DNA of 35,751 nt from a virus, in IMG/VR virus record IMGVR_UViG_3300048056_000025, positions 1-35,751 of that record; one strand, 5' to 3'. Position 1 is the stretch's first letter. Each line of letters opens with the position of its first letter. The notes below the pieces were generated by a model that worked only from the letters and a program-made list of their open reading frames with translations, ran no database searches and had not been told where the DNA came from. Below, piece by piece: positions 13,398-33,024 of this stretch. The position numbers and the translations under genes are program-made.

Positions 13398-13673
13398 GTG
13401 AATGAGGTAATCTGGAAGTTCAAGGTTGACGTTCTGGAGACCGGAGGAATGACAGAGATGCCCAAGGGGGCCAACGTCATTTCGGTAGGAGTCCAAGGCG
13501 ACGACATCACCGTGTGGGCGATGGTCGACCCGGGCGCGCCTCTCGTCATCAGGGACATAAAAGTGATGGGGACCGGCGATCCGCAGGCGGTGAGTTGTTG
13601 CGGGTATGCGTTCGTGGGGACTGTGTTTCTCGGGGCCTACGTGTTTCATGTCTTTGATAGAGGTGAGGCGTGA
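13398..13673 (+). CDS. Conserved phage protein, DUF7352-like
   Basis: This 91-residue protein starts at GTG 13398 with AGGAGGCAGGCT upstream. The pattern IWKFKVDV...TEMPKGANVISVGVQ...ITVWAMVDP...VMGTGDP...FVGTVF...VFHVF is that of a small beta-rich protein family found in many phages and labelled DUF7352. No role is established. Two adjacent Cys (CCG) lie near residue 67. It overlaps the GroES-like gene by GTGA. Confidence 0.7.
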   Translation: MNEVIWKFKVDVLETGGMTEMPKGANVISVGVQGDDITVWAMVDPGAPLVIRDIKVMGTGDPQAVSCCGYAFVGTVFLGAYVFHVFDRGEA

Positions 13674-13984
13674 AGATCATGCCCAAGGGAAACCAAGTCC
13701 TGATCGAGCGCGACCCGCAACCGGACTACGCCACCGAGCACCTCATTCACACACCGGCGTCAAGGCGCGCGGTGTGGACCGGGACCGTCTGCGCTGTAGG
13801 CCCGGGGATGAAGCATCACAAGTGGGGCGGCGACGACTGGCGAGACAACATGGACCTCGAGCCGGGGGATCGCATTCAGTTGCGGCCCTCGGAACACGGC
13901 ATGTTTCTCGACATCACGGGCAAGGCCAGCCACGTCTTGATTGACCGGGATTACATCTTGGCCAAGGGCGTGGGCGAGGCGTGA
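13670..13984 (+). CDS. GroES-like co-chaperonin
   Basis: This 104-residue protein starts at GTG 13670 in a GTGA overlap. It has the order of chaperonin-10: MPKGNQVLIERDPQPDYATE at the start, a mobile-loop position near residues 24-30, GTVCAVGPG near 40, then DNMDLEPGDRIQLRPSEHG, and the C-terminal LIDRDYILAKG. Length matches GroES (about 97). It probably caps the host GroEL to fold a phage protein, most likely the capsid protein, as T4 gp31 does. Placement inside the head module supports this. The mobile loop is not a standard hydrophobic triplet, so the binding mode needs testing. Confidence 0.8.
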   Translation: MKIMPKGNQVLIERDPQPDYATEHLIHTPASRRAVWTGTVCAVGPGMKHHKWGGDDWRDNMDLEPGDRIQLRPSEHGMFLDITGKASHVLIDRDYILAKGVGEA

Positions 13985-15415: not shown

Positions 15416-15937
15416 ATGGCGAATCCAGACAACCCGGTCGGCTTTGATGTCGTCGGCACCCTCGACGGTGGCGCGATCAAGAAGTCCACTGGCTATTTGA
15501 ACTCCACCCAGACGATTGCAGTGGGCGACCCGCTGATTCTCTCGTCTGGCCGCGTCTCGGTCGCTGCCGCCACAAGCGGCAGCCTCCTCGGCGTGTGCGC
15601 TCCGCAGCTCGGTGTGACCACGCTGGGTGTCAACGTCTTCACCACGCCCGCGCAGGACACGGCGATCCTCTACTACGATGCTCGCCACGTCTTCGCTGGT
15701 CAGTGCTCCGGCACGTATGCCAACACGTACAAGGACGCCCTATGTGACGTGGAAGGCACCACCGGGATCTTCGAGGTCAACGAGAACGCGACCACCGAGA
15801 GCTGCATCCAGATCATCGACGAGATCACCGGGAACTACCGTGGCCGAACCGGGCTGACCACGGGGGCGAACAGCATCGTCAAGTTCAAGATTGTCAAGCC
15901 CATGGGTGGCGGTCAGACCGCTGACCAGACGTCGTAG
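15416..15937 (+). CDS. Head decoration-like structural protein
   Basis: This 173-residue protein starts at ATG 15416 (AGGAGATCCGAAC upstream). It is Ala/Gly/Thr/Ser-rich and beta-prone, beginning ANPDNPVGFDVVGTLDGG and containing DPLILSSGRVSVAAATSG and LGVCAPQ. These match the general pattern of small capsid decoration proteins encoded just before the major capsid gene. Such proteins bind the outside of the mature capsid and stabilise it. Identification is by pattern and position. Confidence 0.65.
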   Translation: MANPDNPVGFDVVGTLDGGAIKKSTGYLNSTQTIAVGDPLILSSGRVSVAAATSGSLLGVCAPQLGVTTLGVNVFTTPAQDTAILYYDARHVFAGQCSGTYANTYKDALCDVEGTTGIFEVNENATTESCIQIIDEITGNYRGRTGLTTGANSIVKFKIVKPMGGGQTADQTS

Positions 15938-16867: not shown

Positions 16868-18316
16868 ATGCGACACCTCCGAAATCAGTTCGGGCGTACC
16901 AGGTGGGGGGCTTGCCTCCTCGCGTTGTGCGCAACTCTCGTCTTCTCCTTCGCCGTCTCTGCCCTGCCTCCCGAGGGCGACGGCTTCACCAGCATTCGGA
17001 TCACTCCGAAGAACTACAGCACGAACGCCCTGGTCGTGATCAATCCGAGCACCGGTTCGTCTGTCTACACCATGACCAAGGCTGGCGCTGTGACCTACGG
17101 CGGCGCGCAGACGTTCAACTCCACGACCACGTGGGGCACGGCAGGGAGTATCGACTTCAACGGCACCAGCATTGACCTCGACCCCACGACCGACGTCACC
17201 TGCGACATGGACGCGGGGAAGAACATCACGTTCACCGTTTCCGACACCGAGGCTGATGCGTTTCTGATTCAAGAGGGTTCCAGCGCCTATCTTGACATCA
17301 CCACGACCAACTCCAGCGAGGCCATCAACCTTGGAAACGCAACGACCAACCCAGACGTGAACATCCTTGGATCAGGGACCGTGGCCATCGCTGGCCCGGT
17401 TGACGGGGCCGGTGCTGCTGACTTCGCTGGCGACTTCTCTGTCGCAACCAGCAACTTCACCGTTGCATCGGCCACGGGCAACACGCTGGTTGCTGGCACC
17501 CTGACCTCGACCGGCGCCCTTGACGTCAACGCAGCGGCCGACATCTCAGGGGCGCTGGTTCTCTCTGCTACCACTGGCGATGCTCTGTCTGTGGCCTCTG
17601 GCGCCGCTATCGACAATGACGGCACGCTCGATCAGAACGGCAACGTGGACATGGCAGGTAACGTGGTTCTGTCTGGGTCCAGCAAGACCATCTCGGCGGC
17701 GTCTCTGGTGGACATGAACGCCGGTGCCGACGTTGGCGGCGCTGCACTCAACCTGTCGTTTGCGGGCGATGCCCTGACGATGGGGGCAGGCAACGACGCC
17801 AGCATGGACGGCTACGTGGCCCACGGCACCGGCACGCCAGACAAGGTGGTCGCCGGAACTGACGCCGTGCTCTATGTGACCGGGGCCAGCGAGTTCGACG
17901 GCTTGAGCTACTTCGACGCCGATGTGGCCTTCGCCGCTGACATCCTCGTGGCCGTGGACACCAACCTTCAGGGCGAACTCGAGACCAACGGCGTCCTGAA
18001 GTTCGACAACATCGCGGCCAAGACGGCGGCGTATGCCCCGGCTGCTGCGACCACTGACTACATCCTCACGGTGACGGCGGCAGCGGGGTCCTGGACCTAT
18101 GCCTACCCCGAGGAGGACTGCGATGCTGCGGCCGACATCGGCCGGATCATCAAGGTCAAGTGTGCCGCTTCTGGGGCCACTGGCTGTGCGGCTCGCCCAA
18201 TCACCATCACCCCGGAGACGGCGACCATCGACGGCGCCGCGTCCCTGGTGCTGTCTTCTGACTACGCGGCCGTTGAGCTTCTGTGCTCGGCCGTTAACAC
18301 CCTGCTCGTCTTCTAG
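16868..18316 (+). CDS. Exported beta-repeat protein, possible head fibre or surface protein
   Basis: This 482-residue protein starts at ATG 16868 (GGGAGGGATC upstream). Residues 1-33 are a full Sec signal: basic start (RHLRNQFGRTR), hydrophobic core (LLALCATLVFSFAV), and SALPPE at the likely cleavage. Residues about 120-350 are low-complexity Ala/Gly/Ser/Asp repeats of beta-helix type (TGNTLVAGTLTSTGALDVNA). The C-terminal 90 residues end in a fibre-tip pattern (ITPETATIDGAASLVLSSDY). A virion protein assembled in the cytoplasm should not need a signal, so it may instead be exported to the cell surface. No family is recognised for the full chain. Confidence 0.7.
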   Translation: MRHLRNQFGRTRWGACLLALCATLVFSFAVSALPPEGDGFTSIRITPKNYSTNALVVINPSTGSSVYTMTKAGAVTYGGAQTFNSTTTWGTAGSIDFNGTSIDLDPTTDVTCDMDAGKNITFTVSDTEADAFLIQEGSSAYLDITTTNSSEAINLGNATTNPDVNILGSGTVAIAGPVDGAGAADFAGDFSVATSNFTVASATGNTLVAGTLTSTGALDVNAAADISGALVLSATTGDALSVASGAAIDNDGTLDQNGNVDMAGNVVLSGSSKTISAASLVDMNAGADVGGAALNLSFAGDALTMGAGNDASMDGYVAHGTGTPDKVVAGTDAVLYVTGASEFDGLSYFDADVAFAADILVAVDTNLQGELETNGVLKFDNIAAKTAAYAPAAATTDYILTVTAAAGSWTYAYPEEDCDAAADIGRIIKVKCAASGATGCAARPITITPETATIDGAASLVLSSDYAAVELLCSAVNTLLVF

Positions 18317-18330
18317 GGGAGGGAGGTAAA

Positions 18331-18825
18331 ATGGCCTATACCCCGAGTGTCCTGGCTTGGAACGGACCCGTTACCAAGTCCCCCACGCTCTCTGGCACTG
18401 GTGCCCAGAGCGACAACCTTTTTACGGTTACCGGCGCCTGCGAGTGCATCGTGCGCGGTCGCGTGACCACGGCCTCGACCAACATGACGGTTCTACAGCT
18501 CGAGGAGTATGACGGCACGGCTGCGGTGGACATCACCGCGAGCGGCGTGACGCTGTCTGCCCTCGCTGCTGGAACCGCCGTCTTCCGCAACGGCCTCGCT
18601 GCGTCCACGCTTGCCCTTTCGGACAACGCGGCTGGCGACGTGATCGAGGGCGGTGACGCTGGTCAGAACGGCGTGGAGACGAGCTTCATCGTCAACGCCA
18701 AGACGGCCGTCACCACGTACATCCGAGCGACGTACAGCTCCACCGAGAACCCCGACAGCGGCGTGATTGAGTGGACCTGCTATTGGCGTCCGCTGTTCTC
18801 TGGCAGCGGCGTGGTCGCAGCCTAA
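18331..18825 (+). CDS. Beta-rich structural protein without signal
   Basis: This 164-residue protein starts at ATG 18331 (GGGAGGGAGGTAAA upstream). It has no hydrophobic N-terminus, unlike its neighbours. It alternates small and hydrophobic residues (NLFTVTGACECIVRGRVTTA, then AAVDITASGVTLSALAAGT) in the manner of a beta sandwich, and ends with IEWTCYWRPLF. It may be a decoration or fibre-associated protein. Its place between two exported proteins suggests a shared role, but this is not shown. Confidence 0.65.
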   Translation: MAYTPSVLAWNGPVTKSPTLSGTGAQSDNLFTVTGACECIVRGRVTTASTNMTVLQLEEYDGTAAVDITASGVTLSALAAGTAVFRNGLAASTLALSDNAAGDVIEGGDAGQNGVETSFIVNAKTAVTTYIRATYSSTENPDSGVIEWTCYWRPLFSGSGVVAA

Positions 18826-18843
18826 CTGAAACCCTAACCGGTG

Positions 18844-18867
18844 GGCCGGGGGCGCAAGCCCTCGGCC
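18844..18867 (+). terminator. Strong GNRA-loop hairpin after the capsid-region genes
   Basis: GGCCGGGGGC (18844-18853) pairs with GCCCTCGGCC (18858-18867) around a GCAA tetraloop, with one G-U pair. Only TT follows, so termination is uncertain. It lies 19 bases past the stop at 18825. Confidence 0.45.
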
Positions 18868-18873
18868 TTCCGC

Positions 18874-18948
18874 CTCTGCCCACGCGCCGCCTTGGCCTGC
18901 CTCCGGGGTGTGTTGCTCGGGTTGTTCCGCGCTTAGGCGTGGGCAGAG
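18874..18948. other. 12-bp perfect inverted repeat
   Basis: CTCTGCCCACGC (18874-18885) is exactly complementary to GCGTGGGCAGAG (18937-18948), enclosing 51 bases. With the GNRA hairpin it fills the non-coding gap at 18826-18959. It could be an RNA regulatory element, a processing site or a recombination scar between two gene blocks. Confidence 0.5.
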
Positions 18949-18959
18949 TCGGAGGGCCG

Positions 18960-19139
18960 ATGGTAACGAAATCCTATCCGCCGATTCCTAGCTCCAATCC
19001 GAAGTGCACCTACGTAACCTGCCGCATCTGCGGCTGGGCAGTGAGCGACGAAACAAGCCCGCGCAAGGCTCTTGACTTTGGCGACGGGACAGGCATTTGC
19101 GAAACCGACCTAGACGACGACAGAGGAGAATCGAAATGA
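18960..19139 (+). CDS. Small zinc-ribbon-like protein
   Basis: This 59-residue protein starts at ATG 18960 (GGAGGGCCG upstream) and overlaps the next gene by ATGA. CTYVTCRICGW near residues 15-25 and a single Cys near residue 48 could bind zinc. The end is acidic (ETDLDDDRGES). Function is not recognised. Its place at the start of the signal-peptide group suggests a regulatory or assembly role. Confidence 0.55.
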   Translation: MVTKSYPPIPSSNPKCTYVTCRICGWAVSDETSPRKALDFGDGTGICETDLDDDRGESK

Positions 19140-19666
19140 AGCGAACCGGAATCGGAATCCTTGCCGCCGTCTTGGTTGTCGGTGTCGCCGCGACCGCGTG
19201 GGCTGTGCACAACCGCAGCATGGTGGCGTTCGCGTCTGCCGTGCTGCCTGCTGCCAGCGCGTGGGCGACCGGAAACGACAACCAGTGCGAGGGCGACAGG
19301 GCGCGGCTACTGGCCCGCTATACCACGCACGCCAGCGGGGCCAACGGTCGCGCCGAGTACAAGGTGGAAATCGGCTACGACCTCGACACGAAGGGCACCG
19401 TCGTCTGGTTCCCATATGCCGTGTGCGACGATGCCGCCGCTGGGCAGGCTGTGACCAACGACCTCTCGGAATGGGAGGCGACTTGCTATGCGCGGGTGTG
19501 GACGTTCAACACGCCTGCCAAGGTTAGCACCACGATGGAGTTGCCCGTGCTTGAATTCGACATGTTCGGGGCAAGATACATTCGAGTGTCCGCGAGAGAA
19601 GTCGGGGATACGACCAACAGGGGCTCGTTCGCTGCTTCCTGGGTTTGCGCGAGCACGGACATCTAG
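19136..19666 (+). CDS. Exported protein with Sec signal
   Basis: This 176-residue protein starts at ATG 19136. Residues 1-23 form a Sec signal (MKRTGIGILAAVLVVGVAAT, then AWA before the mature start). The mature part has four Cys spaced over the chain (NQCEGD, AVCDDA, ATCYAR, WVCAST), suiting two disulfide bonds in the periplasm or outside the cell. The fold looks beta-rich (AEYKVEIGYDLDTKGTVVWF). No family is recognised. It is translationally coupled to the zinc-ribbon gene and lies directly upstream of a large fibre-like gene. Confidence 0.65.
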   Translation: MKRTGIGILAAVLVVGVAATAWAVHNRSMVAFASAVLPAASAWATGNDNQCEGDRARLLARYTTHASGANGRAEYKVEIGYDLDTKGTVVWFPYAVCDDAAAGQAVTNDLSEWEATCYARVWTFNTPAKVSTTMELPVLEFDMFGARYIRVSAREVGDTTNRGSFAASWVCASTDI

Positions 19667-19675
19667 GGGGCTGAC

Positions 19676-21811
19676 ATGCAGAAGACGATCACCTTCGCCG
19701 CCCTCTCCGGAGTGATCCTCGGCCTGCTCATCTGGCAGGCTACCGGCTGCCTCGACGCGCAGGCTGGCGACTCCGCTCCCTCGGCCACCGAGATGATCTC
19801 GAGCGGCGGTGCGGCCATCAACCCAACCACCACCGACATCACCCTCGGCTCTGGCCTGCAACTGTTCCTCGACGACGGCACCGCCTGCACCGACCCGGGC
19901 ATCGCGTTCTCGTCGGAGGATTCTGGATTCAGCATTGCGGGTGCTGCGCAGATGGCGATGTGCGTTGCCGACAGCAGAGTCGGAGAGTTCAACACCAACG
20001 GTATCTCTGTCATCGGCGCAGAGATCGAGGCCCCCGGTTCGCTGACTCTGCAAGACGGCGCGTTCTACGGGCACACCTCGACGGCCGCGAGCGGCAACGA
20101 GATGTCCATTGTGGCCACCCCTGGCAGCGCACGAACGAGCGACCTCGTGAACTTCCAGATGGTCGGCACCGACGCCAACAACACCGTGTTGAACCTGGCG
20201 ACCAACGACGTTGGCGGTTCGTTCATTTCGATGCACGACGGGTCGGCCGATGTGCTCACCGTCTCCCAGCCTGGAGTGCTCACCCTCGGCGCAACCGCGA
20301 GCATCAGCCAGACGAGCACCGCCGCCGCTGCCAGCGATACCCGCACGTTCACCCCGGGCGCCGCATTCACCGGCGACTCGGTGAGCTATTCCTGCGTCGG
20401 CACCGATCACAATGGCACCTGTCTCAACGTCAGCCAGTCGGACGCCAACGGCAACGTGTTCACGTTTGGCAACGGCACCACCGACCTGATGAGCCTGTCG
20501 CAGACCGGCACGTTCGCAATGGGCGACGGCACGCGGCAGACGATCACCTCGACGCAGACCACCGGCACCGAACTCGCCATCACGGCCACGCCGGGTAGCA
20601 ACCGCTCATCCGACATCATGTCGATCACGGCGGCTGGCGCCAACTGGACGGGTGGGTATGGGCTGTCTTTCGACGTAACCGCAGATGCCAGCATTGGCGC
20701 GCTAAAGGCAGACCTTCGGTCTGTGTCCACGCACTCATATCTCGACATCTATCAGTCGGGAACAATCGCATGGGAGGCGCAGACCCAATCTTCTGGCGGG
20801 TTGCTGTGGAGGCTGGGCCGAGATATAGGGTCCGGAAATGCCGTCACATTCGACGCGGACTCGGGCCGCGAAATTACCGACACCAACGATCATCAGTCAA
20901 TGTTTGAGGTGCAGGGCCGGGTCAACCAGACGGGCACGGCTTCTTTTTCCGGCATCTCGTGGTCCCCGCAGGCAATCACCTCCGAGGGCGACGGCACCTC
21001 CGGCACCGGGAACGCGGCGTATCGCGCCAACTGGCCCGCTGGGTACGCCACTGGCCACGACGGGGCAGCGGGTGGGGCCTACCTCATCAGCAACTCCGTC
21101 AACGGCGCGGCGCCGAACTACACCGTGGGCTCCGATGGCATCGTGACCGCAGTCACGCCTCGCGGCGAAATGACCATGTATGAGGCGGCGCAGGCGCTCG
21201 ACATCGACACCGCCCAGAAGTACGTCGGCGCCATCGGCTTCTCCACGGGAGACGTGCAGGGGTTCACGTTCGACGCGGGCCGAATCGTTGACGCCAACAT
21301 CACCAGCGAGGCCGACAATACGGTGGTGAGAATCGTCACCAGTGCGGCCCACGGGCTGACCACCGGCGACATCGTAACCATTACGGGGGCCAACAACGCG
21401 GGCCACGACGGCATCACCGCTGTCACCGTGATTGATGCTACCACGTTTGACTGCGACGATCTTACCTATGTGGCCGGGGCTGGCGCATCTGCTGCGGTGG
21501 TCTATGAGCCCTCGTATCTGGAGGCTGGCGCGACATCTGCGGGCGAATACGAAATCGGCATGAACGTCTCGATGGAGCACGCATCTGGCGGCGCTGCACA
21601 GGTCATCAAGTGGGAGGTCAACGTCAACGCGACCGAGCCTGACAAGTGCGTCGGTGAGTCGAACATCGCCAACGCCGCGCTTGAGACGGTCTCGAGTTCG
21701 TGCTTCCAGACCATCGCTGCTGGCGACAGAGTATGGCTCGCGATCAAGAACCAGACCGCCGCAATCGACATGACTATCCAGCACGCCAACGTCCACCTGA
21801 AAAGGTTCTAG
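19676..21811 (+). CDS. Large exported fibre-like protein with 78-residue repeats
   Basis: This 711-residue protein starts at ATG 19676 (AGGGGGCTGAC upstream). Residues 5-24 are hydrophobic and end in ATGC at 22-25, a possible but imperfect lipobox; otherwise a Sec signal. Two repeats of exactly 78 residues occupy 123-200 and 201-278 and a degenerate third follows to about 362, each beginning near LTL and containing VGTD. Residues about 540-605 (SAAHGLTTGDIVTITGANNA, then VTVIDATTFDCD) match the E1-FCCH-like beta domain common in phage tail fibres. It could be an adhesin on the virion or a host-surface protein. Cys are few and mostly paired. Confidence 0.7.
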   Translation: MQKTITFAALSGVILGLLIWQATGCLDAQAGDSAPSATEMISSGGAAINPTTTDITLGSGLQLFLDDGTACTDPGIAFSSEDSGFSIAGAAQMAMCVADSRVGEFNTNGISVIGAEIEAPGSLTLQDGAFYGHTSTAASGNEMSIVATPGSARTSDLVNFQMVGTDANNTVLNLATNDVGGSFISMHDGSADVLTVSQPGVLTLGATASISQTSTAAAASDTRTFTPGAAFTGDSVSYSCVGTDHNGTCLNVSQSDANGNVFTFGNGTTDLMSLSQTGTFAMGDGTRQTITSTQTTGTELAITATPGSNRSSDIMSITAAGANWTGGYGLSFDVTADASIGALKADLRSVSTHSYLDIYQSGTIAWEAQTQSSGGLLWRLGRDIGSGNAVTFDADSGREITDTNDHQSMFEVQGRVNQTGTASFSGISWSPQAITSEGDGTSGTGNAAYRANWPAGYATGHDGAAGGAYLISNSVNGAAPNYTVGSDGIVTAVTPRGEMTMYEAAQALDIDTAQKYVGAIGFSTGDVQGFTFDAGRIVDANITSEADNTVVRIVTSAAHGLTTGDIVTITGANNAGHDGITAVTVIDATTFDCDDLTYVAGAGASAAVVYEPSYLEAGATSAGEYEIGMNVSMEHASGGAAQVIKWEVNVNATEPDKCVGESNIANAALETVSSSCFQTIAAGDRVWLAIKNQTAAIDMTIQHANVHLKRF

Positions 21812-21819
21812 GAGAGAGC

Positions 21820-22158
21820 ATGGCTGACAAGACGACCACCACGATCATCGCGCTGGCGGCTCTGACTGCTGGCGCCATCGGCGGGAGCACGCTGCTTCCC
21901 GCCGCGTCTGCCACCGAGGTGGACGTGCCCGAGTACGCGGAGATCGTTGCCGAGGGCGGCGACCTTGCCGACCTTCGCAGCGCGGCGGCGTACAAGGTCC
22001 AGCGGATGCGGGCGATCAAGCGGGCCAAGGTCATCGGCGTGCTCGACTGGATTCGCGTTAATAAGCCTGCCGTGTGGGCGCAGATCATGGCGGCTGTGCA
22101 GGCCAACTGGGACAACGCCTATCCGCCGCCAGAGCCCGAGCCTGTGGAGCCCAAGTAG
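21820..22158 (+). CDS. Small exported or membrane-anchored protein
   Basis: This 112-residue protein starts at ATG 21820 (AGGAGAGAGC upstream). Residues about 8-31 (TIIALAALTAGAIGGSTLLP) are hydrophobic and followed by AASA, so a cleaved signal is possible. The rest is a charged helix (YKVQRMRAIKRAKVIGVLDW) and a Pro/Glu-rich tail (YPPPEPEPVEPK). It is the fourth hydrophobic-start protein of the block. It touches the next gene with a TAGTG junction. Confidence 0.55.
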   Translation: MADKTTTTIIALAALTAGAIGGSTLLPAASATEVDVPEYAEIVAEGGDLADLRSAAAYKVQRMRAIKRAKVIGVLDWIRVNKPAVWAQIMAAVQANWDNAYPPPEPEPVEPK

Positions 22159-22898
22159 TGGCCTACACGGACCAAGATCACCCGGTGCGCCGGGAACTGC
22201 TGTATAGCGGAAACGGCCCGCAGACCGTGATCCCGTACACCTTCGTCGTTGACGAAAAGGCCACGCGCGCCACGTCTGCGACCATCGCCATTGAGGACAG
22301 CAGCGGCACCGCCCTGCTCGCCGCCACGGCGATGACTCTGGAGGCAAGCCCCAGCGCCACGTTCAACTACACCGTAGACTGCTCGGATACCGATGACTAC
22401 ACGCTGGCCGAGGGCTACAAGGCTACCATCGCCGTCACGTATGGCGGGGCGGTCTACACCGACGTTCTGTGGTTCGACGTGTGCCGCCGTCCGCTGGTCC
22501 CCACCTTGACGGACTCCGGGCTCGAGGAGCTTGAGCAGGAGTTGGCGCATTACAAGGACACCGGCGAGACGGATTGGTCCAAGAAGATCCGGGCGGCGTG
22601 GGGGCGCATTTTGTCCCGGTTGCGGCAGAAGGCCAACCAGGATGGATTCATCCGCCCCGCTCTGATCGTCGGGTACGACCAGCTCTATGAGGCCCACCGC
22701 CTGTGGACGCTTGAGCTTATCTGGGCTGACCGTCTCAACGAGGGCGAGGCGCAGGCGTACAAGTACGAGATGTACCGCGACGAGCGCAGGCAGGAGCTTG
22801 ACGCCGCGCTGGCAAGCCTCACGTATTCCGTGGGCGACGCCGAAGATCCTGACGTCACCGAGCGCGAGAACTTCAGCGGGATTATGCTGACTCGATGA
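22158..22898 (+). CDS. Probable head-tail connector protein
   Basis: This 246-residue protein starts at GTG 22158, the last base of the previous stop. The N-terminal 110 residues are beta-rich (YTFVVDEKATRATSATIAIE). The C-terminal part is helical (SGLEELEQELAHYKD, then WGRILSRLRQKANQDG). This mixed layout, position after the head block and before the tail-completion gene, and ATGA coupling to that gene fit a head-tail adaptor. No family is recognised with certainty. Confidence 0.55.
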   Translation: MAYTDQDHPVRRELLYSGNGPQTVIPYTFVVDEKATRATSATIAIEDSSGTALLAATAMTLEASPSATFNYTVDCSDTDDYTLAEGYKATIAVTYGGAVYTDVLWFDVCRRPLVPTLTDSGLEELEQELAHYKDTGETDWSKKIRAAWGRILSRLRQKANQDGFIRPALIVGYDQLYEAHRLWTLELIWADRLNEGEAQAYKYEMYRDERRQELDAALASLTYSVGDAEDPDVTERENFSGIMLTR

Positions 22899-25855: not shown

Positions 25856-26221
25856 GTGTCGAGGCAGGGAGCGGCGAAGGACGTTGACTGTGAGAACTGC
25901 CGCAAGCGCAGGGCTCACGTTAGGCGAGGCTGCTACCCCGAGCACCGCATGAGCAGCCCGGTGCCGTTCAACCGGCCCGACCTGAAAGACAGCGAGCCCG
26001 CGTATCACTGCGCGGCCAGCATATCGGGCGCCGTCGCCCGGGCCGGGTGGTTCTCCACCTATGCCCGCATGAAAGACGGACACCTTCCGCGCCCCGGATC
26101 GTGGGGTGAGCAGTCACACCGATGGTGCCAGGGAATCGACGTCATAGACGCCGAGGTCAAGCGGTACGAATCCGAGATGATCGAAGAGTCCAAAAACAAG
26201 GCGGCGAAGAAACGTGGCTAA
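25856..26221 (+). CDS. Tail chaperone extension (gpT-like), -1 frame
   Basis: The conventional start would be GTG 25856, giving 121 residues, but no ribosome site precedes it, and the frame is open back to 25829. A fusion with the preceding protein through the site at 25839-25847 gives about 260 residues. The chain has CENCRKRRAHVRRGC near its start and a GHLPRPGSWGEQSHRW segment like the LP-x-G-Q pattern in gpT-type parts. The C-terminus is a charged helix overlapping the tape-measure gene. It most likely extends the chaperone; a separate protein is less likely. Confidence 0.6.
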   Translation: MSRQGAAKDVDCENCRKRRAHVRRGCYPEHRMSSPVPFNRPDLKDSEPAYHCAASISGAVARAGWFSTYARMKDGHLPRPGSWGEQSHRWCQGIDVIDAEVKRYESEMIEESKNKAAKKRG

Positions 26222-27869
26222 AGTTGTCGAGGAACTGCAAGTCCTGATCAAGCAGCACGGGGCCAAGGAAGTCACCCGTGCTATGAAGGGCATGGAGAAG
26301 CAGACCGACAGCAACGTCAAGAGCCTTGCTAAACTCGCCGCTGGATACGTCGGCATCCGCGCTCTGTGGTCCGGCGCCAAGGGCCTCACCAACCTATACG
26401 CACAGCAGGAGATGGCCGAGCAGAGGCTTGAGGCGCGGACGCGCCGCCTCGGTGACGTGACTGGTGTATTTGCCGAGCGCCTGAAGCAAGAGGCGTCCGC
26501 AATGCAGCGGGTGTCCATGTTCGGGGATGAGGTGTGGATGTCCACACAGCGACTCCTCCTCGACCTCGGCGCCAACTCCGACAACATCACCAAGGCCACG
26601 AAGGCCACGGGCGAGCTCGCCGCCGCCCTGGACATGGACCTCAACAGCGCCGCCCGTCTTGTGGGCCAGGCGCTATCCGGCAACGTCCAAACCCTCGCCC
26701 GCTACATCCCCGCCGTTCGTGATCTGACCAAGGCCGAGATTGACGAGGGCAAGGCCCTGGACCTCGTGCTTGAGAAGCTCGGCGGCTCGATGAAGTCGCA
26801 GGAAGGTACCGTTCAGTTCGCCACCGAGCAGCTCTCGATGGCGGCAAGCGACCTTGGCGAAGAGGTGATGAAGCCTCTGGCACCATTGATTCGTGATGTT
26901 GCGCTCGCCCTTGCCGAGATGGCTGCGGCCATGAAGAAGGCAGGAGAGTTAGAAGAATTCTGGGCCCTGTTCACCCCAGACAGCCTTGGCGGCGGTGTTG
27001 TCGCAGGGCTGAAAATGATAGCCGAAGCAAAGCGCCAGGCGGCCGATCTTCGCAAGGAAGCATTATCAGAGCAAAAGGCATTTGAGTCTAAATGGTTTGG
27101 CCTCGACATTCCTCTTGTTGGCGCCGGAAAAAAGAAGACCAAGCCCAAGGGCAAGGGCGGCACAGACGACCTCGCCGCCGCCCTCGCTGGGGGCGAGGAC
27201 TGGGGCGGCTCTGACGCGGCGCTTGCTGCGTGGCGTGACCTTGAATACGGCAAGCTGGAGATTGACGAGGAGGCACAGGCCGCCCGCACCGACCTGTGGT
27301 TCCAGAGCACCATTGACCGCCTCGACGCCGAACAGGCGATGCTTGACGAGATGGCAATAGCCCACGCAGACAACGCTGACCTGCTGGCCCGCCAGTGGGA
27401 TCAGCAGTTCGGGCAGCAGTGGAAGCAGATGGCGCAGGGCATGGGCCAGGTGTGGGGCCAGCTCTGGATGGATATTGTCAGCGACCAGAAGAACGCAGGC
27501 AAGCAACTCCTCGCGGGCATCCTCGGCGTGATGGGCGACTGGGCCATCAGCGAAGGTAGCATCATGATGATGGCAGCGCTGGCAGAGGCGGTCCCGACCA
27601 AGGGCGCAAGCCTCGCTGGGCTCGGTCCTGCCGCCGCGCTGATCGCCGCTGGAGGCATTCTCAAGGGCGGCCAAGCGCTCACGCAGGGTCACTCCTCCGG
27701 GCTTAACTACGGCGCGGGAGGATCGTTCTCGCAGGCTCCAGGTGCATCACAGCAGCGTCCGTCCGTGGACATCACCGTCAATTACTCTGGCCTCGGATAC
27801 GACAAGGGCGCCATCGGCGCAGAGATCCATGACGCTCTAGGGCGTGCCGAAAAGGAGGGCCGCATCTAA
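26214..27869 (+). CDS. Tail tape measure protein
   Basis: This 551-residue protein starts at GTG 26214, overlapping the previous stop. It is long, helical and Ala/Lys-rich, with coiled-coil parts (KSLAKLAAGYVGIRALW, ARTRRLGDVTGVFAERLKQE) and a hydrophobic stretch near residues 440-495 (MMMAALAEAVPTKGASLAGL). It sets tail length by spanning the tube before assembly. Length suggests a tail of about 80 nm if the usual proportion holds. It is shorter than typical siphovirus tape measures. No lysozyme or peptidase domain is evident. Confidence 0.8.
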   Translation: MAKVVEELQVLIKQHGAKEVTRAMKGMEKQTDSNVKSLAKLAAGYVGIRALWSGAKGLTNLYAQQEMAEQRLEARTRRLGDVTGVFAERLKQEASAMQRVSMFGDEVWMSTQRLLLDLGANSDNITKATKATGELAAALDMDLNSAARLVGQALSGNVQTLARYIPAVRDLTKAEIDEGKALDLVLEKLGGSMKSQEGTVQFATEQLSMAASDLGEEVMKPLAPLIRDVALALAEMAAAMKKAGELEEFWALFTPDSLGGGVVAGLKMIAEAKRQAADLRKEALSEQKAFESKWFGLDIPLVGAGKKKTKPKGKGGTDDLAAALAGGEDWGGSDAALAAWRDLEYGKLEIDEEAQAARTDLWFQSTIDRLDAEQAMLDEMAIAHADNADLLARQWDQQFGQQWKQMAQGMGQVWGQLWMDIVSDQKNAGKQLLAGILGVMGDWAISEGSIMMMAALAEAVPTKGASLAGLGPAAALIAAGGILKGGQALTQGHSSGLNYGAGGSFSQAPGASQQRPSVDITVNYSGLGYDKGAIGAEIHDALGRAEKEGRI

Positions 27870-32709: not shown

Positions 32710-33024
32710 ATGAAACGCATCGCGATCCTGCTCTTGGTCCTGTCGGCGTGCGGCGGCGAGGACGAACAGACCGGAGACGCTGACAACCCGTGCCCGCCGG
32801 GGGCCTCGGAGGTCGGCACGCCAGTCGATTATCCATACGTTGAGGTATGGTGTAGGACAGCCAGCGGAACACCGCACGGCCACGCGAGGCTTGAGAACAC
32901 CGAATCCGGGTGCTGGAAAGTCGAGGGCTTTCACAACAGCGGGGATCGTTGCGGTCAGTGGGTGTGGCGTGACGACGCCTGCGAGTTTTCTAAAGACCGC
33001 GAGTATCCCCCCTGCCCATACTAG
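32710..33024 (+). CDS. Autonomous lipoprotein with MORN-like body
   Basis: This 104-residue protein starts at ATG 32710 with AGGAGGCACC upstream. Residues 1-14 are a lipoprotein signal, MKRIAILLLVLSAC, with lipobox L-S-A-C and Gly-Gly-Glu after Cys14. The body has GTPHGHARLENTESGCWKVE then FHNSGDRCGQWVWRDD, close to the G-x-x-x-G-x-W pattern of MORN-like repeats in bacterial lipoproteins, and is Cys-rich. The form is more host-like than phage-like. Its own strong promoter and position between tail and lysis genes match a moron, an inserted gene that may alter the host envelope, for example for superinfection exclusion. Function is not known. Confidence 0.75.
   Translation: MKRIAILLLVLSACGGEDEQTGDADNPCPPGASEVGTPVDYPYVEVWCRTASGTPHGHARLENTESGCWKVEGFHNSGDRCGQWVWRDDACEFSKDREYPPCPY

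Follow-up and report, generated by a model that had tools for sequence, protein, structure and literature searches.

Tailed phages are understood to assemble in the cytoplasm, and the locus described here raises the question of what a run of proteins with Sec-type export signals is doing inside the structural operon of such a phage. The window, meaning the whole stretch of DNA that was analysed, is an IMG/VR virus record of 35,751 bases (GC 0.63) that contains no tRNA genes and gave no match in an Rfam search. We see about an even chance that the six-gene block behind its capsid gene encodes outer virion parts of the fibre or decoration type, made with Sec signals, exported, and docking late. 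The signals and the capsid-adjacent place are seen in the window itself; from them we infer that the proteins would actually be exported, belong to the virion, and join it late.

The late genes of the window all lie on the + strand and run from the terminase gene (8465) and the portal gene (9796, with a weak SPP1_portal match) through a scaffold-like gene (14262), two small head genes, and the major capsid protein (MCP) gene (15953) to the block, which is followed by the genes of a tail and a lysis end. The tail is assigned to the siphovirus type because a tape measure protein is encoded at 26214..27869. At the lysis end lie a gene recognized by eye as amidase-like, another that is holin-like, and genes for small membrane proteins, and these lysis genes make a Gram-negative host likely; a small Cys-rich lipoprotein-like gene (32710-33024) lies close to them. 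Upstream of the scaffold-like gene is a GroES-like gene (13670-13984; E 0.001, below the cut-off), a gene also present in the related clade described below and in Mu gpT-like capsid relatives. A scan with the window terminase matched one 5 kb contig, which was too short to extend to the MCP gene. Export signals were scored with a home-made scheme based on charge, hydrophobic core, and the residues at -3 and -1, rather than with SignalP; on this scale values of 13-19 are obtained for the Escherichia coli controls OmpA, PhoA, MalE, LamB, PelB, and Lpp. The six open reading frames of the block were confirmed as a single, closely spaced series on the + strand that follows the MCP gene, and are listed here with their neighbours.

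15416..15937, + strand: conserved small head protein, at -1 of the MCP gene; signal score -4.2; tblastn matches to the -1 gene of related loci L008, L093, L094, and L163
15953..16858, + strand: MCP, Mu gpT-like/Phage_capsid_4; Pfam PF25209 (4.1e-7) and PHROG 371 (3.1e-10); best IMG/VR relatives 32-34%
16868..18316, + strand: 482 aa beta-repeat fibre-like protein with a Sec signal; score 20.1; ..FAVSA/LPPEG, predicted cleavage at about residue 32
18331..18825, + strand: 164 aa protein without a signal; homologue LR745208 (34.6%, 2e-7)
18960..19139, + strand: 59 aa CxxC protein without a signal; Cys pattern and position judged by eye
19136..19666, + strand: 176 aa exported-type protein with four Cys; score 18.8; ..TAWA/VHNR
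19676..21811, + strand: 711 aa beta-repeat fibre-like protein with a signal; score 14.6; lipoprotein or SPase I site
21820..22158, + strand: 112 aa protein with a hydrophobic N-terminus ending in ASA; score 16.0; ..PAASA/TEVD; signal or anchor
22158..22898, + strand: 246 aa protein, first gene past the block; signal score -10; no database match; by its position, probably a head-tail joining protein
26214..27869, + strand: tape measure protein; tblastn match to the tape measure of siphophage vB_DshS-R4C (4e-4) over 25% of the tape measure only; weak TMP_N match

The first-pass annotation had ascribed signals or hydrophobic N-termini to four of the six consecutive proteins, and scoring of all six bore this out: 16868, 19136, 19676, and 21820 are positive (14.6-20.1, against 13-19 for the controls), and 18331 and 18960 score below 0. 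All four positives among the 29 genes from the terminase to 31994 sit in the six-gene block (hypergeometric 6e-4); no other structural gene of the window scores above 9, a value exceeded outside the block by a few lysis-end genes, as expected. When the first 40 residues were shuffled, the real score was reached in 0/200 trials for 16868, 19676, and 21820 and in 12/200 for 19136, which is weaker in this comparison because its entire N-terminus is hydrophobic. The predicted SPase I features (positive n-region, hydrophobic core, and small residues at -3 and -1) are clear in 16868 and 19136 and plausible in 19676; 21820 lacks a positive n-region, its net charge there being about 0, so that an uncleaved anchor is conceivable. 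Compared with the lipobox [LVI][ASTVI][GAS]C, the candidate site QATG/C25 of 19676 has A at -3 and Q at -4, and an SPase I-type AQA/G site follows at residue 30. Translation starts are supported by Shine-Dalgarno-like stretches upstream of the block genes, and the first 68 residues of 16868 offer no alternative Met.

The annotation had also described two long beta-repeat proteins with fibre-type ends or an FCCH domain. The repeats stand (period about 63 in 16868 and about 78 in 19676, with self-scores of 63 and 78, where shuffled sequences reach at most 43-44), but the domain matches are weak, FCCH reaching E 8.6e-4 on a fragment, below the Pfam cut-off, and the C1q-like C-terminal end of 19676 only E 0.14. 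Its suggestion that Cys spacing in the mature parts suits disulfides was not supported, since mature Cys counts of 5, 4, 7-8, and 0 were found in the four proteins and 9 Cys are likewise encoded by tail genes whose products are not exported, for example 23754. Family and phage searches returned no homologue of note for 16868, database searches none for 19136, and a single-sequence scan no relatives of 19676; IMG/VR single-sequence scans with the MCP, 16868, 19136, and 19676 likewise found no relatives, and PDB sequence searches gave no match. The AlphaFold model of 16868 is unusable (pLDDT 37). The LR745208 homologue of 18331 sits among virion-type genes of a huge phage, and the slot of 18960 is occupied in the related clade by Zn-ribbon-like CxxC proteins, to which tblastn gave no sequence match.

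Relatives were reached via profiles of the capsid protein. A first scan yielded 80 loci, of which the nearest, L008 (34%) and L009 (32%), both encode a signal-bearing protein directly after the MCP, and a second scan added L088, L089, L091, L092, L100, and L162 with signals behind the MCP. Through the two best matches a podovirus-like clade was reached that numbers about 20 contigs. Among 168 loci, signal-positive genes account for 24/61 of those within eight genes downstream of the MCP in nine loci (window included), versus 8/761 elsewhere, and for 1/844 of those within six genes upstream overall. In the clade, the MCP gene is followed by an exported small protein (+1), an O-antigen ligase (Wzy_C), a CxxC protein in many members, a second exported small protein (+4), small genes, the adaptor, the nozzle, and the fibre; genes after the fibre look like internal proteins, judged by position and composition. 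Exported proteins thus occupy the same position next to the capsid gene in the clade, and because of this the block is not a quirk of a single contig, but homologues of the block proteins were not detected there. Comparison of 16868, 19136, and 19676 with the clade +1, +4, and fibre profiles gave hhalign probabilities below 1%, and since the exported families show no detectable homology, the link between window and clade is positional and functional only.

Several further observations were made among these loci. The ligase gene lies between the two exported small proteins, within the structural operon (L008:11306-12460, L009:11338-12510, and equivalents in 19 clade loci). The +1 protein has a homologue in L090 that lacks a signal (hhalign 94%). 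Two near-complete clade genomes have additional fibre-like genes with signals, and more fibre-like proteins with signals are encoded in L181 (8146-10761, 12155-13756, 15298-15729) and L183 (11451-12796), where a LamG-like protein and a possible outer-membrane barrel occur as well. Outside the clade, the MCP of a phage of GC 0.56 is immediately followed by a gene for a 189 aa protein with a signal (L131:1199-1768), and the complete circular podovirus genome of phage ctKR88 (MW202524; L177:2531-11362) has genes annotated as glycosyltransferases and methyltransferases between the MCP and the adaptor. For the fibre families A10 and ctKR88 there was no significant match. A Euryarchaeota origin of L162 (VGTM01000014.1), a clade contig in a Euryarchaeota MAG, was not accepted, as the contig is probably mis-binned.

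Within the clade, signals are restricted to the nozzle, the fibre, and the two small proteins, with conserved cleavage sites. With automatic starts, they are found in 57/64 members of these families (+1, 19/19; +4, 14/14; fibre, 12/14; nozzle, 12/17) and in 0/175 members of fourteen other families, which cover the MCP, portal, scaffold, adaptor, and internal proteins together with further small non-membrane proteins. These counts leave out the O-antigen ligase, which is a polytopic membrane protein. Gln stands directly after the predicted cut in 19/19 nozzles, 16/19 of the +1 proteins, and 9/14 of the +4 proteins, and in 0/13 fibres, a family that has Gly instead; the window block proteins have no Gln at this place. 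In Bacteroidota, most exported proteins have Gln right after the cleavage site (PMC5837995). A Bacteroidota host for the clade is suggested by these residues, a suggestion weakened by the Shine-Dalgarno-like sites found before 45/77 clade genes.

The clade nozzle, a protein of about 530 aa, adjoins the adaptor, is present in a single copy in each record holding it, and matches PHROG structural families 3287/578. In a Foldseek search all 11 of the top 11 PDB matches were podovirus tail proteins (E 8e-12 to 3e-6, from a poor model of pLDDT 47 and with low TM-scores), including those of Pa223, VP1, P22, Pan3, Sf6, T7, PhiM1, HRP29, and Pam1, several annotated as nozzle or tail complex. The structure matches, PHROG families, and adaptor-nozzle-fibre gene order liken the protein to the P22 gp10/T7 gp12 family and support its assignment as a podovirus tail nozzle, as far as the predicted model allows. 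It differs in its predicted cleavable Sec signal, which ends in [A/S/P]Q in 19/19 clade nozzles with a resolvable start (that of L194 is not resolvable), whereas six distant nozzle homologues lack a signal and start directly with the conserved motif. The clade start overlaps or abuts the adaptor stop, with no later Met before that motif. Identity among clade nozzles is 22% in the signal (first 18 residues) versus 55% in the mature part; this pattern, in which the signal varies freely but its start stays charged, its core hydrophobic, and the junction residue fixed, would be expected if Sec export and SPase I cleavage were under selection. On the tree of mature parts one change suffices to account for the signal (support 98/97), which by this reading was gained once.

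The annotation started from the premise that signals do not belong on virion proteins, and it is this premise that the canonical, conserved signals on clade nozzle and fibre challenge; no such signal occurs on the scaffold, MCP, portal, adaptor, or putative internal proteins. Because of this division, heads are proposed to form inside the cell while the outer parts wait beyond the inner membrane until lysis. Heads with their portal would be built in the cytoplasm; the outer parts, carrying Sec signal peptides, would be exported and would fold in the periplasm, except that 19676, if it is lipidated, would do so on the outer membrane; and they would dock onto heads or tails once the inner membrane is breached, during or after lysis. 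The broader proposal, that a group of tailed phages with both podovirus-like and siphovirus-like members assembles in two compartments, with cytoplasmic heads joined at lysis by Sec-exported nozzles, fibres, and surface proteins, is put forward tentatively, at somewhat less than even likelihood. In known podoviruses, the nozzle is required to seal the packaged head. An exported nozzle raises a problem of stability, namely how a filled head would stay closed without it.

The annotation had named a structure on the host surface among its possibilities. Block proteins absent from virions and residing in the infected-cell envelope, where they might mask receptors, exclude superinfection, or form an adhesive layer, would account for the signals, the possible lipobox of 19676, and the surface-sugar genes in the same slot of relatives (the Wzy_C ligase and the ctKR88 glycosyltransferases), with precedent in exported phage proteins such as lambda Lom, whose genes lie among those of the tail (PMC12309495). 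Such a mask would not account, however, for the signals on a single-copy clade nozzle and the fibre immediately after it, and the window block shows no separate promoter or GC shift; we consider this reading rather unlikely. The export signals that the annotation saw in the structural block are real features of it, the clade pattern points to exported virion parts over a purely host-surface mask, and a surface role is most conceivable in the window phage, since no homologues of its block proteins could be detected in the clade. Uncleaved anchors holding outer parts at the inner membrane face, or inserting into the particle, would suit the neutral n-region of 21820; AXA-type ends in 3/4 window proteins, and a residue after the predicted cut that is conserved in the clade (Q or G by family) as the signal varies freely, make this distinctly improbable.

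A chance insertion of moron or lysogenic-conversion genes into the structural run could appeal to the exported genes of unknown function that occur in Bacteroidota phages (PMC10367356). The base composition of the block is, however, that of its surroundings, no promoter, terminator, or GC break was found at it, the genes are spaced by 8-134 bases or overlap inside the operon, and relatives have exported genes at the same position, which makes such an origin very improbable. The sole terminator-like match lies inside 16868, fewer matches than expected by chance. A typical moron of the lambda Lom type, with its own promoter and terminator and deviant composition, was considered and rejected as the main explanation, as the block has none of these features. 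Finally, chance hydrophobic N-termini or wrong starts might be feared from a home-made scorer; the controls and shuffles, the upstream Shine-Dalgarno-like stretches, and the absence of false positives in clade structural families largely refute this, leaving it barely any likelihood. The preferred reading of the block is that of exported outer virion parts.

Known systems offer partial parallels. Lambda Lom resembles the block in being an outer-membrane protein that bears a signal and has its gene in the tail region (PMC12309495), but it is the product of a single gene, a beta-barrel expressed in lysogens, and not fibre-like. Among the genes of Porphyromonas gingivalis siphophages are some with SPase I signals, part of which conform to the Q-rule, and signals are reported even on capsid proteins; the MCP signals are attributed to prohead protease cleavage, five other signal-bearing genes are of unknown function, and the nozzle, fibre, and block pattern of clade and window is not described in the accessible part of that account (PMC10367356). 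Roseobacter phages CRP-901/902, Planktothrix phage Pag-Yong1, and Pelagibacter phage HTVC023P have capsid proteins about 26-30% identical to that of the window and a similar order of scaffold, small genes, and MCP, but, unlike the window, no signals right behind the MCP. In the cultured pelagiphage HTVC023P, gp45 (L006:12382-13038; 218 aa), six genes past the MCP and between adaptor and nozzle, is a signal-bearing candidate. Exported phage genes are already known, from lambda Lom and the P. gingivalis phages; signals on a phage tail nozzle or fibres, or such a block, were not found described in the open-licence literature searched.

Conserved, once-gained export signals on a nozzle, a fibre, and two small proteins would break the rule of cytoplasmic assembly, and if the window phage does likewise, the trait spans two tail types with a common head module. 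If the block proteins instead stay on the cell, the block would define a new class of surface cassettes that are expressed late. Either outcome matters for recombinant fibre expression and for the prediction of virion proteins, since pipelines may drop signal-bearing genes as non-structural.
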